In this document: positions 40,067-44,023 of the stretch, piece after piece
Layout: each line of letters begins with the position of its first letter
Position numbering within the stretch: position 1 is the stretch's first letter
Source: Clostridia bacterium
Lineage (GTDB): Bacteria; Bacillota; Clostridia; Christensenellales; CAG-138
Assembly: GCA_017438865.1 (NCBI GenBank)
Contig: JAFRUN010000067.1
Location: 1 to 44,023, forward strand
Reading direction: 5' to 3'
Length of the DNA: 44,023 bases
The notes under the pieces: generated by a model
Database searches by the model: none
What the model was told of the DNA's origin: nothing
The model's input: only the letters and a program-made list of their open reading frames with translations
Translations under genes and position numbers: made by a program

Positions 40067-41341
40067 ATGGATCAGAACAAATTCGAGCGCTTCGACATGA
40101 AAAAACCGCCGTACCGCACGGCGTGGTATCTCAAACCGCTGACGTATCTTTTAAGCGCGCCGGACGTGAAAAAGCACGGCGCGATCATCAAAAAGACCGG
40201 CACGGAGGGCTTGAAGCCGCCGTACCTTCTGCTGTGCAACCACAACGCGTTTCTGGACTTCAAGGTCGCGACGAAGGCGATCTGGCCCGCGCGCGCAAAC
40301 TACGTCGTGGCGATCGACGGGTTCATCGGGCGCGAATGGCTTTTACGCCGCGTCGGCTGCATCTGCAAGCGCAAGTTCACGAACGACATCACGCTGATCC
40401 GGCAGCTCAGGCGCGTCGTCGAAAACGGCGATATCAACGTGATCTATCCCGAGGCGCGCTATTCGCTGTGCGGCACGACCGCGGTGCTGCCCGCGTCGCT
40501 CGGCAAGCTCTGTAAGCTTTTAGGCGTGCCGGTGGTCACATTCATCTGTCGCGGACACCACATCAATTCGCCGTTCTGGAACCTGCACGAGCGCGGCGTG
40601 AAGCCGACGGAGGCGGAGATGACGCTGCAGTTTTCGGCGGAGGAGCTGAAGACCGCGACGCCGGACGAGATCAACGAGCGGCTCGTCAGGGCGTTTCAAT
40701 ACGACGACTACGCGTGGCAGAAGGAGAAGGGGATCCGCGTGACGTATGAGAAGCGGGCGGAGGGGCTTCATAAGGTCCTGTACCAATGCCCTGCGTGCAG
40801 AACGGAGTATAGAATGGCGAGCGAGGGAACGCATCTCTTCTGCAGGGCGTGCGGCAAACGCTGGTTCTGTAATGAGGACGGGAGCTTGACTGCCGAGACC
40901 GGCGAAACGGAGTTTTCGCATATCCCGGACTGGTACGAATGGGAGCGCGCGAACGTGCGAAAAGAGGTCGAAGCGGGAACGTACGACAGCGGCGAGCTTC
41001 CTGTGACCGTGCGGTCGCTGCCGAACGCAAAGAAGTTCATCCTGCTCGGCGAGGGCACGATGCGCCACGATATGACCGGTTTCCATGTGTCCGGCGTCGA
41101 TCCGGACGGCGATCCGTTCGAGATGGAAAAGAACGTGCCGTCGCTGTATTCCTGCCATATCGAGTACGAATACCTCGGCAAATTCGGCGACTGCGTCGAT
41201 CTCAACACGCTTGAGGACACCTGGTACATCTATCCGCACGACTGCGATTTCGCCGTCACCAAGATGGCGCTCGCGACCGAGGAGCTGTATTTTGCCGATC
41301 GCAGGAAGAACGGACTTCCGGTGAAGCCGGGACTGGCGTGA
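40067..41341 (+). CDS. PlsC-like acyltransferase with C-terminal zinc-ribbon extension
   Basis: 424 residues. The N-terminal domain has acyltransferase motifs of the lysophospholipid (PlsC) family: NHNAFLD (His59, Asp64, the HX4D motif) and YPEARYS (127-133) in place of FPEGTRS. A four-Cys zinc ribbon follows (CPAC at 241-244, CRAC at 259-262) and then about 150 residues of unassigned, beta-rich sequence. Typical PlsC proteins stop near 200-250 residues, so this is an extended form. aaggggg precedes ATG 40067. It is the last gene of the thpR-addB-addA operon. Lipid acylation is inferred from motifs; the role of the ribbon is unknown. Confidence 0.82.
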   Translation: MDQNKFERFDMKKPPYRTAWYLKPLTYLLSAPDVKKHGAIIKKTGTEGLKPPYLLLCNHNAFLDFKVATKAIWPARANYVVAIDGFIGREWLLRRVGCICKRKFTNDITLIRQLRRVVENGDINVIYPEARYSLCGTTAVLPASLGKLCKLLGVPVVTFICRGHHINSPFWNLHERGVKPTEAEMTLQFSAEELKTATPDEINERLVRAFQYDDYAWQKEKGIRVTYEKRAEGLHKVLYQCPACRTEYRMASEGTHLFCRACGKRWFCNEDGSLTAETGETEFSHIPDWYEWERANVRKEVEAGTYDSGELPVTVRSLPNAKKFILLGEGTMRHDMTGFHVSGVDPDGDPFEMEKNVPSLYSCHIEYEYLGKFGDCVDLNTLEDTWYIYPHDCDFAVTKMALATEELYFADRRKNGLPVKPGLA

Positions 41342-41366: not shown

Positions 41367-42341
41367 TCAAAACGGCAGCTTGGCGGCGTCCGACAGGGTT
41401 CGGACGCCGTCTTTCGTTTCCGTGGGCAGCACGGTGACCGTAAACGTGCGGATCGATTTGAGATCGCCCATCAGCCCCAGAAGCTCGAACACGGACAAGC
41501 TGGATGTGAACGCGCCGCGCGTCGCTTTTCTGAACGCGGGCAGGTCCCACAGCGATACCCTGTCGAGGTATTTCACGATCCCCACGCCGAGCTGCGCCAT
41601 GTCGCGCGCACGCGTTTCGTCCGGCTCGTTCAGCATTTCGACGAACCGGTCGAGGTCGATCCCGGCGCCGTCTGCGGGAAGTTCCGGCGCAAAAGAAAAG
41701 AACGCTTCCATGCAGCCGAAATCCATGCACAGGTATGCGGGCGCGCGGTAGCCCAGGAGATTCTTTACCGTCCAGACGAGGTTCCAGCAGCCCTCACGCG
41801 TGCTTTCGGCGCGCGCCGTCGCAGTTCTGAGAGGCGCGGTATCGACCGAAGCGATCGACGCGTCCTTTCCGAGCGTATAGACCGTCGCCGCCGTTTCCAC
41901 GGGGATCGCCGCGACGATCGCTTCCGGCGGCGCCGCGTGAACAAGCAAAACGGCGATCGCCTCGCCGTTCTGCGTTCCGATCGCCATGAATTCCTTGACC
42001 TGTTCGCTGTAGACGCCGTCCCGCGGATGCGTCGCCTCCGCGACGGGCGCCGGGGAGGGAGAAGCCGTCGGCGTCGAAAGGACCGCCGGCGTGTGCGCCG
42101 CGCCCTCCGGCACCAGCGGAAGATAATACGGCGTCGGGGAGGGCGTTTCCGTGGGCGCGGGCGTCGGGGAGGGCGTGATTTCCGGCGTCGGCGCTGCCGT
42201 TGCGGGCGGCAGCGAGGGCTCCTGCGGGACCGGATCGCTCCTTCGGAAGTATTGCAGGAAAAGCAGAAGACCGACGAGCAGGAGCACGGCGACGGCGGAA
42301 AGCGTGACGATCAAAATCGTTTGTTTGCGCGAAAGCTGCAT
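41367..42341 (-). CDS. Membrane-anchored protein with degenerate LCP-like domain
   Basis: 324 residues. A membrane helix (about 9-28) is followed by a Pro/Thr/Ser linker (35-110) with repeated TPSPTP motifs and an extracytoplasmic domain. This domain has the layout of LytR-CpsA-Psr proteins (AIAVLLVHAAPPEAIVAAIPVET, a helix NLVWTVKNLLGYRAPAYLCMDFGCMEAFF, and a late FELLGLMGDLKSI). The Arg residues that hold the pyrophosphate in active LCP enzymes (in the IPRDT region) are not seen; the site reads IPVET. It may be an inactive relative. ggagg precedes the ATG. It is convergent with plsC-like and divergent from the ECF-kinase gene. Confidence 0.5.
   Translation of the reverse strand: MQLSRKQTILIVTLSAVAVLLLVGLLLFLQYFRRSDPVPQEPSLPPATAAPTPEITPSPTPAPTETPSPTPYYLPLVPEGAAHTPAVLSTPTASPSPAPVAEATHPRDGVYSEQVKEFMAIGTQNGEAIAVLLVHAAPPEAIVAAIPVETAATVYTLGKDASIASVDTAPLRTATARAESTREGCWNLVWTVKNLLGYRAPAYLCMDFGCMEAFFSFAPELPADGAGIDLDRFVEMLNEPDETRARDMAQLGVGIVKYLDRVSLWDLPAFRKATRGAFTSSLSVFELLGLMGDLKSIRTFTVTVLPTETKDGVRTLSDAAKLPF
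41384..41415 (+). terminator. Probable terminator of the thpR-addB-addA operon inside the convergent gene
   Basis: Nine-bp stem (41384-41392 with 41401-41409), eight-base loop, followed by tctttcgttt. It lies about 40 bases after the plsC-like stop and within the 3' end of the LCP-like gene on the other strand. Confidence 0.55.
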
Positions 42342-42428
42342 GGAAAAACCTCCGGAACGGGTTTTGTTTCGGTTAGCTTGCGCGGTTTTTTGCGTTTTAT
42401 CCGCGACGGTTTATATTATTTGAAACGG

Positions 42429-42457
42429 TTGCGTGCGGAAACAAATCATATTATAAT
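42429..42457 (+). promoter_or_regulatory. Promoter of the ECF-S/pantothenate kinase gene
   Basis: TTGCGT (42429-42434), 17-base spacer, TATAAT (42452-42457). The leader is about 22 bases with a ggagggg ribosome site. Confidence 0.78.
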
Positions 42458-42485
42458 AGGTTTATCTCTTTTCCGGAGGGGCAAC

Positions 42486-43874
42486 ATGAAACATGACTGG
42501 CTGCGCAAAATGATTCTGGCGGCGATCTTCATTGCGATGATCATATTGCTGGCGTTCACGCCGATGCTCGGCTACATCAAGATCGGTCCGCTGTCCATCA
42601 CGACCATCGGCATTCCGGTCATCATCGGTTCGATCATTCTCGGGCCGTATTACGGCATGCTGTTGGGCTTCGTATTCGGCATGACGAGCTTTTTGCAGTG
42701 CTTTATGGGCGACGCGTTCGGCGCGGCGCTGGTTGGGATTTCGCCGGTGTCCACGTTCATCACCTGCATCGTTCCGCGCGTGCTGGTCGGTCTCGTGCCC
42801 GCGCTTCTGTTCAAGCTCATCATGAAGCGCCCCACCAACAGCCGTTCGGTTGCGGTCTTTGTTTCCGCGCTTGCGGGCTCGCTCACCAACACGGTGTTCT
42901 TCCTCGGCTTTTTAGGACTGCTGTTCGGGCGCACCGAGTATATCAGGAGCATGCAGGTGCAGGCAGACGGCACGACGATCTCGCTTTTTGCGCTGCTCGT
43001 CGGCTTTGCGGGCGTCAACGCGATCGCGGAAGCGGTTGCCGTGGCGATCATCGCCCCGCCGGTATACTTTGCGCTGCAGCCGCATAAAAAGGTCGTCGGC
43101 GTCGATCTCGGCGCGTCCGGTACCAAGATCGTGCTGATGCGCGGCACAAAGCTTTTGAAATCCACGAAGCAGCAGCCGGGGGAGACGCTGGAGGAGGCGC
43201 TTGTGCGCTTCAATCCCGAGGATGCGAACTGCATCACCGTGACCGGCGTCGGCGCGGCGGCGCTGCCGGATACGATCCTCAAAAAAAAGGTCGTCAAGGT
43301 CGACGAGTTCGCGTCGCTGTACCGCGGCGCGTCGATCACGGCGAAGCGGCTGAACATGATCGTGGCAAGCGTCGGCACCGGCACCGCGTTCGTGCGCGTC
43401 ACGCCGTTCGGCGCGTGGCATCTCGGCGGCAGCGGCGTCGGCGGCGGCATGCTCGAGGGCATGAGCAAAAAACTGTTCGGCAGCTTCGATCCGAAGGCGC
43501 TGCAGGCGCTCGCCGCGGAGGGCAGACCGGAAAACTGCGATCTGCTCATCAAGGACGTCACAACGGGACAGATCGGCAACCTCACGCCGGAAACGACCGT
43601 TGCAAACCTCAGTAAAGCGGGCACGGCGGACGACGCGTCGCTTGCGCGCGGGCTCTATACGCTGATCTTCCAGAGCATCGGCGTCATGGGCGCGTTCTGC
43701 ACGAAGGCGCACCTCACCCGCACGATCTTTGTGTGCGGCACGATCCTCGATTCGCAGCCGATCGCAAAGGAAATGCTCGACGGCATTGCGAAGCTGCACA
43801 AGGTCAGGTTCGTGATCCCCGAAAACGCGGCGTTCATCACCGCGATCGGCTCGACAAGGCAGGTGCAAAGCTGA
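42486..43874 (+). CDS. Fusion of an ECF-transporter S component and a type II pantothenate kinase
   Basis: 462 residues with two parts. Residues 1-197 form an ECF S component with about six membrane helices and the usual TTIGIPVIIGSIILGPYYGMLLGFVFG-like signature. Residues 203-462 are a type II pantothenate kinase (ASKHA fold): phosphate loop VDLGASGTK (206-214), a candidate catalytic Glu in VDEF (Glu274), GTGTAFV (297-303) and GGSGVGGGMLEG (314-325). Stand-alone type II kinases have about 260-270 residues, so the kinase is complete. The five-residue joint (QPHKK) would place it on the cytoplasmic side if the topology is standard. ATG 42486 follows ggagggg; the open frame before it is not coding. 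The S-component substrate is inferred to be pantothenate from the fused enzyme. The energising ECF A/T genes are elsewhere. Confidence 0.88.
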   Translation: MKHDWLRKMILAAIFIAMIILLAFTPMLGYIKIGPLSITTIGIPVIIGSIILGPYYGMLLGFVFGMTSFLQCFMGDAFGAALVGISPVSTFITCIVPRVLVGLVPALLFKLIMKRPTNSRSVAVFVSALAGSLTNTVFFLGFLGLLFGRTEYIRSMQVQADGTTISLFALLVGFAGVNAIAEAVAVAIIAPPVYFALQPHKKVVGVDLGASGTKIVLMRGTKLLKSTKQQPGETLEEALVRFNPEDANCITVTGVGAAALPDTILKKKVVKVDEFASLYRGASITAKRLNMIVASVGTGTAFVRVTPFGAWHLGGSGVGGGMLEGMSKKLFGSFDPKALQALAAEGRPENCDLLIKDVTTGQIGNLTPETTVANLSKAGTADDASLARGLYTLIFQSIGVMGAFCTKAHLTRTIFVCGTILDSQPIAKEMLDGIAKLHKVRFVIPENAAFITAIGSTRQVQS

Positions 43875-43906: not shown

Positions 43907-43935
43907 TTGCAATCCTGACGCGTATTTGTTATAAT
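43907..43935 (+). promoter_or_regulatory. Promoter of tRNA-Thr
   Basis: TTGCAA (43907-43912), 17-base spacer, TATAAT (43930-43935), 12 bases before the mature tRNA 5' end. Confidence 0.85.
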
Positions 43936-43947
43936 GCGCGTTGCAGC

Positions 43948-44023
43948 GCTGATGTAGCTCAGTAGGTAGAGCACGTCATTGGTAATGACGAGGTAGTCAG
44001 TTCGAATCTGATCATCAGCTCCA
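43948..44023 (+). tRNA. tRNA-Thr (anticodon GGT)
   Basis: 76 bases including an encoded CCA. Acceptor gctgatg/catcagc, D-stem gctc/gagc, anticodon stem cgtca/tgacg with loop ttggtaa (anticodon GGT at 43981-43983, reads ACC and ACT), variable loop aggta, T-stem gtcag/ctgat with loop ttcgaat, discriminator T then CCA at the window end. All stems pair, with one G-T pair in the T-stem. More tRNA genes could follow beyond the window. Confidence 0.97.

Follow-up and report, generated by a model that had tools for sequence, protein, structure and literature searches.

A PanT-kind ECF S component joined to a type II pantothenate-kinase-like domain in one clostridial chain, a candidate importer-kinase for pantetheine

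The window, by which we mean the whole 44,023-nucleotide stretch of DNA analysed here, carries a gene in which a PanT-kind ECF S component and a type II pantothenate-kinase-like domain are joined into one chain. The fusion is real: it is due neither to chance nor to a lost stop codon. We favour, with some confidence, an importer-kinase that in the cell most likely acts on pantetheine (or its disulfide), feeding CoaD and CoaE. Judged from gene content, its likeliest job would be to replace PanT, CoaX and CoaBC.

Results

A single frame encodes an S component and a kinase-like domain

The gene occupies positions 42486..43874 of the plus strand and reads in the window sequence as a single frame from ATG to stop, 462 codons without an internal stop, for a protein of 462 residues. 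Residues 1-198 (42486..43079, plus strand) form an S component domain of the PanT kind, on the evidence of Pfam, solved relatives and hydrophobicity. Pfam ECF_trnsprt (PF12822) matched residues 7-194 with 77.1 bits against a cut-off of 30.7, over the complete profile (1-169 of 169), and the residues up to 198 are strongly hydrophobic, in stretches that overlap and hence give no helix count. The top solved relatives of this part were the PanT chains 4rfs_S (E 8e-18) and 6zg3_C (E 1e-11); beyond these two, no S component among the solved structures was matched at E values up to 1. The domain therefore groups with PanT and not with the carrier of another vitamin, an outcome that the first-pass annotation of this DNA had named as damaging to its proposal.

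A linker of about four residues, the joint PHKK (residues 199-202, 43080..43091, plus strand, from the fusion alignment), leads from the S domain into the kinase-like domain (residues 203-462, 43092..43871, plus strand); its P199 is nearly invariant in 17 aligned fusions. The NCBIfam type II pantothenate kinase family PRK13317 matched residues 202-460 with 155.9 bits, below its equivalog cut-off of 234, Pfam Fumble matched residues 291-433 with 50.2 bits (gathering cut-off 28.5), and the top solved relatives were S. aureus PanK chains. In the nucleotide loop GVDLGASGTK (residues 205-214, 43098..43127, plus strand), G205, D207, G209, S211, T213 and K214 are invariant across the 17 fusions, and the alignment also shows the GTGT loop to be kept. 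Codon E274 (43305..43307, plus strand) lies opposite Glu70 of S. aureus PanK, presumably the catalytic residue; 89 of the 90 rows in the kinase alignment have Glu at this position, and the remaining row is partial, with a gap there. One chain thus holds both an S component and a type II PanK-like kinase, as had been proposed from the letters alone.

A Shine-Dalgarno-like GGAGG (42475..42479, plus strand) stands 6 nt ahead of the ATG, which bears out the ribosome site noted earlier. The promoter noted with it is less sure: a TATAAT is present at 42452-42457, but a consensus scan gave no -35 partner for it, returning instead a different, weaker site at 42420-42449. No ATG, GTG or TTG occurs in frame between codons 187 and 215. 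The nearest start-like codons are GTG 186 and, on the other side, GTG 216 and ATG 218, with CTG 197 in addition; because GTG 186 falls in the last helix and both GTG 216 and ATG 218 come after the nucleotide loop, the kinase is unlikely to have a clean start of its own. The upstream gene (41367-42341) is divergent and had no Pfam match, and on the 3' side a promoter-like site (43907-43935) precedes a tRNA-Thr (ggt; 43948..44023, plus strand, tRNA call). Given these neighbours, the fused gene looks monocistronic. The window also encodes, at 40067-41341, an acyltransferase-domain protein (30.1 bits), the second part of which is FtrD-like at a sub-threshold 17.7 of 26.3 bits.

The fusion recurs within one family

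Some match to the window protein was found in 92 of the 103 genomes of the window's family. In 28 of them, from five genera, both domains lie in one frame; these include 17 of the 23 genomes of the window's own genus (g1, window counted), and two partial cases, G093 and G047, the latter split by contig ends. Thirteen of the 28 genomes are at least 90% complete. A TAA flagged inside the G061 match proved by its coordinates to be that gene's own stop. The joined frame in 28 genomes rules out an assembly artefact or a stop codon removed by sequencing error, which the first-pass annotation had raised against itself; nor are the closest homologues two separate genes, since the nearest ones are fused as well. 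Among full-length fused relatives in other assemblies, identity to the window protein is 78-95% in the nearest type and 36-46% in the remaining types; named records of the nearest type include the uncultured Clostridiales RUG13758 and assemblies from sheep rumen and from the reticulum of water buffalo. Within the genus, seven comparisons gave a dN well below dS in the S part, the kinase part and the junction.

Outside the family no fused form was seen in samples of 347 genomes from the order, 391 from the class and 398 from the phylum, which overlap one another and partly the family, and in which the best four (order) or best six (class, phylum) candidates per genome were scored, so that misses are possible. 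This, with the 28 of 103, answers how common such fusions are, a point on which the earlier reading had offered no estimate. The kinase was present in 61 of the 391 class genomes and 19 of the 398 phylum genomes, in frames of 189 to 351 codons except for the window; in G643 and G694, both from the class, the match lacks the kinase front and so cannot show whether an S domain was joined. A search of the open-access literature yielded no report of such a fusion; an entry in a domain-architecture database or a subscription paper is possible.

The two partners also occur as neighbouring genes. An S-component gene lies directly upstream of the kinase, on the same strand, at 19 of the 46 best-scoring class and phylum loci (L093-L138), a lower bound, as the S profile derives from fused S domains and contig ends cut off some loci. 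Inside the family such pairs were found in G001, G033 and G030. The G030 pair (L040) has the kinase start four codons after the S stop, in the same frame; it is classed as two adjacent genes, so that the fused cases number 28 and the unfused ones 18, and the comparison of 46 with 57 genomes given below is unaffected. In relatives without this kinase, the S gene stands beside CoaX, for example in the same-genus G057, where CoaB is a divergent neighbour (L142).

CoaB is mostly missing where the kinase is present

CoaB was detected as the Pfam DFP domain, which was matched in all 14 control genomes; the other proteins sought were PanC, CoaX, CoaD, CoaE and EcfT. PanC, one of the checks suggested at the outset, was absent from all 103 family genomes. 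Across the family, DFP was found in 45 of 103 genomes, CoaX over its cut-off in 51 and CoaD over its cut-off in 93. Fusion genomes had DFP in none of 28 and CoaX over cut-off in two (G006, G075), and genomes with an unfused kinase had DFP in one of 18 (G088) and CoaX in one (G024, partial), versus 44 (DFP) and 48 (CoaX) of the 57 kinase-less genomes, among which a distant kinase may have been missed, the search having used the window's single sequence. For DFP in the 46 kinase-bearing genomes versus the 57 others, Fisher's test gave p 4e-16, a value that ignores kinship and is therefore too small. Because eight of the 57 kinase-less genomes were without both DFP and CoaX, some of the absences are draft gaps or missed kinases.

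The same pattern was seen inside single genera. DFP was found in 0 of 17 fusion genomes versus 6 of 6 others in g1, in 0 of 2 fusion genomes versus 8 of 10 others in g20, in 0 of 4 unfused-kinase genomes versus 7 of 7 others in g13, and in 0 of 1 with versus 1 of 1 without the kinase in g16. The contrast is weak in g23 (1 of 10 with the kinase, 1 of 3 without), and there is none in g10, g15 and g24, where four kinase-less genomes are also without DFP.

The later steps of the pathway and the shared transport module are mostly retained: CoaD over cut-off was found in 24, CoaE in 26 and EcfT in 27 of the 28 fusion genomes. The window's genome, 79.5% complete, gave CoaD (186 bits) and CoaE (188.4 bits) and no match for PanC or DFP. 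Its EcfT (CbiQ, 159.9 bits, at G000:C58) has two ABC ATPases directly upstream, and the EcfA1-EcfA2-EcfT module that the first-pass annotation proposed to look for is thus present; the frame after EcfT looks like TruA.

Some genomes depart from this pattern and count against it. G006 (L149) and G103 (L153), each 98% complete, keep CoaX and had no CoaB match; their CoaX would yield a dead-end product unless it has another role. G088 (L048, L147) is the sole counted family genome with both a type II kinase and CoaB; it had no CoaX match and is possibly a transitional state. In the wider class, DFP was found in 10 of all 60 kinase-bearing genomes, versus 15 of 20 without the kinase (the first kinase-less handles from G422 on), one of the 15, G433, being a trace. 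Four of the ten have a full-length DFP and six show it in short frames of 259-287 codons. In these six (G462, G552, G614, G653, G702, G770) the short frame matches CoaB in two pieces while the genome also carries the type II kinase; it is perhaps a divergent stand-alone CoaB. Where the kinase neighbourhood was read, in 28 class genomes, DFP was found in 1 of 17 with an S neighbour and in 4 of 11 without. Separately, G075 (L150) holds, besides the fusion, a CoaX-linked S pair very similar to the one of a sister species (L142); this genome is 62% complete and perhaps a mixed bin.

Substrate-site residues in the S domain and the kinase

Purified ECF-PanT transports pantothenate, and mutation has tied three PanT residues, W64, R95 and N131, to this substrate (PMC7755397, in part). 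The alignment with L. brevis PanT puts codon F64 (42675..42677, plus strand) opposite W64, R98 (42777..42779, plus strand) opposite R95 and N135 (42888..42890, plus strand) opposite N131, so that the Arg and Asn are conserved in the window S domain, with Phe in place of the Trp. Phe at the W64 position is also found in 24 of 26 CoaX-neighbouring relatives. R and N are kept in 21 of 21 kinase-neighbouring S domains, and each in 25 of 26 CoaX-neighbouring ones. Among the fused S domains, type C (9 rows) keeps all three residues, type B (L018-L020, L022-L024) has Thr or Ala for the Asn in 6 of 6, and type D, a single row (G006), has lost both R and N. Pantothenate and pantetheine have the pantoyl part in common, and most of these S domains probably still bind it.

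In the kinase, the 90-row alignment sets codon H312 (43419..43421, plus strand) opposite R113 of S. aureus PanK. That position is His in 83 rows, Arg in 6 and a gap in 1 (85 of the 90 rows are distinct). The six Arg rows form a separate classical clade, the gap row is partial, and the window's kinase clade accordingly has His in 83 of 84 rows, with one gap. We take the equivalent residue of human PANK3 to be R207. In the human enzyme, Arg207 hydrogen-bonds pantothenate (PMC8366970, in part). His at this position alone does not tell the route, because genomes with a His kinase and CoaB exist.

One kinase clade, several S types

In the kinase tree, the fused kinases fall into a single clade (SH-aLRT 98) that holds the window's genus as one group (98); L044, which is labelled solo there, represents the second half of the G047 fusion broken by contig ends. 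The S domains behave differently. AU tests, which were framed post hoc with the tree already seen and omit 8 of 87 rows that are long-branched or far off (the fused L039 among them), rejected a single clade for 26 fused S domains (p 0.001) and one clade for types A (11 rows) and B (6) of the window's genus (p 0.0005), and did not reject one clade for types A and C (p 0.139). Type B clusters (SH-aLRT 100) with S domains that neighbour a kinase gene in G030 and G001, members of the window's family from other genera, and in two genomes of another family. The trees are most simply read as a single fusion event, after which the S domain was exchanged at least once while the kinase stayed the same; alternatively, the short S domain may have changed fast.

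One clade of all kinase-linked S domains was likewise rejected (AU p 6e-61, under the same terms), and the tree, which requires six changes, does not cleanly separate the S domains linked to CoaX from those linked to the kinase. One S lineage stands beside CoaX in G032 (L146) and beside a type II kinase in G033 (L041) of the same genus (SH-aLRT 80). Because they do not separate cleanly, the substrate cannot be read from the S sequence by itself.

Discussion

Without CoaBC, phosphopantothenate is a dead end, and phosphopantetheine can proceed through CoaD and CoaE; for this reason pantetheine is the likeliest substrate of the fusion. We infer transport, kinase activity, pantetheine as the substrate and direct hand-over between the domains, along the following lines. 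The S domain would bind a pantoyl-bearing vitamer outside the cell, dock on the shared EcfA1-EcfA2-EcfT module and free the vitamer inside. S components have both ends inside, as seen in solved structures, and the kinase should thus be cytoplasmic. It could plausibly receive the vitamer directly from the S domain, and would trap it by phosphorylating its 4'-OH; pantetheine disulfide, if imported, would be reduced inside. The product, 4'-phosphopantetheine, would pass to CoaD and then CoaE, bypassing the CoaX, CoaB and CoaC steps. Import coupled to phosphorylation of one substrate, the logic first put forward for this gene, is thereby supported as likely. Human PANK3 forms a homodimer in which the protomers share the active sites (PMC8366970, in part), and by analogy the fusion may carry two S domains.

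The exchange of kinases fits this scheme. In B. subtilis, CoaA supports the use of pantetheine and CoaX does not (excerpt of PMC11487621), and the P. aeruginosa PanK-III is reported to be without affinity for pantethine in the part of a review that we cite (PMC12570885). As CoaX does not support pantetheine use, loss of CoaBC would be expected to bring replacement of CoaX, as seen. Against pantetheine, the same review mentions that the activity of S. aureus PanK-II is reported to drop with much pantetheine (PMC12570885, in part).

The substrate assumed in the first-pass annotation was pantothenate, and the gene inventory fits it less well than pantetheine: PanC is absent throughout the family and CoaB from every fusion genome, versus its presence in 44 of 57 kinase-less ones. 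Pantothenate may nonetheless be a substrate, as the S domain keeps two of the three PanT pantothenate-site residues. A protein that serves pantothenate only, with the CoaB and CoaC steps carried out by unrelated, unrecognised enzymes, is in our view unlikely. Its nearest S relative is a known pantothenate transporter, R98 and N135 are kept, and type II kinases are named for pantothenate; but CoaB, detected in 14 of 14 controls, was found in none of the 28 fusion genomes, 26 of these have lost CoaX as well although a pure pantothenate route has no need of that loss, and the pantothenate-contacting Arg is His in the window's kinase clade. Less likely again is a broad importer-kinase for pantoyl vitamers that accepts pantothenate and pantetheine, the pantetheine branch alone reaching CoA. 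The S lineage shared by G032 and G033 speaks for it, in that S may change little from one kinase partner to the other, whereas a pantothenate branch would waste ATP. That the kinase domain serves as a sensor or for coupling and acts on some other substrate, as another kinase of this fold, its fusion to a PanT-like S component being incidental, is very improbable: the domain misses the PRK13317 cut-off and another fusion's kinase part stops at 196.4 bits, yet two unfused kinases of the same clade reach it (269.4 and 234.8 bits), the nucleotide loop, GTGT loop and Glu are kept, and the S-kinase pairing recurs as neighbouring genes across class and phylum.

Returning to pantetheine import and trapping, we lean, somewhat less firmly, towards a wider reading in which a set of PanT-kind S components and the His-marked kinase clade make up a dedicated pantetheine module. 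This module would occur as a gene pair across Clostridia and as one chain in one family, with the S domain exchanged at least once under the same kinase, and would provide CoaBC-less bacteria of gut and rumen with the import step that they are missing. Some gut bacteria without CoaBC must import pantetheine or a derivative, and a 2019 survey found known B5 transporters in just 12% of about 90 CoaBC-less genomes (PMC6593275, in part). Two bifidobacteria without the genes of the CoaBC route depend on pantethine or CoA and are unable to use pantothenate, and the paper on them calls the precise transport mechanism undescribed (PMC8660834). The 2025 review gives the uptake route as unknown except for cysteinopantetheine, taken up through a cystine transporter (PMC12570885). 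In the open-access literature on pantetheine uptake, as far as these partial texts go and subscription papers aside, we found no named importer of the ECF kind. An importer and a kinase in one chain name both partners and make the question testable with one protein. If the reading is true, the labels "pantothenate kinase" and "PanT" in Clostridia may hide pantetheine salvage, and the vitamin exchange predicted for gut and rumen communities changes.

The fusion can be set against four known systems. It resembles PanT (L. brevis 4rfs, L. delbrueckii 6zg3) in belonging to the same S family over the whole domain, in keeping the equivalents of R95 and N131 and in having an ECF module in the genome; unlike PanT it has F for W64 and a kinase at its C terminus, and its genomes show no CoaB, so that pantothenate alone would not serve. 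Its kinase aligns end to end with S. aureus PanK, a type II enzyme (CoaW) like human PANK1-3, and keeps the nucleotide loop, the GTGT loop and the Glu70 equivalent; it differs from these enzymes in falling below the NCBIfam equivalog cut-off, in having His for R113, in being attached to a membrane importer and in sitting in genomes without a CoaB match. The canonical PanT-CoaX(-CoaBC) locus of the sister species likewise combines a PanT-kind S component with a pantothenate kinase, but there the kinase is of type III, the genes are separate and CoaB is kept (L142, L145). With the pantetheine shunt of Bifidobacterium and Clostridiales, as described in part of PMC6593275, the fusion genomes share the absence of PanC and CoaB and the presence of a PanK-like kinase, CoaD and CoaE; what sets the fusion apart from that shunt is that its importer is physically joined to its kinase.
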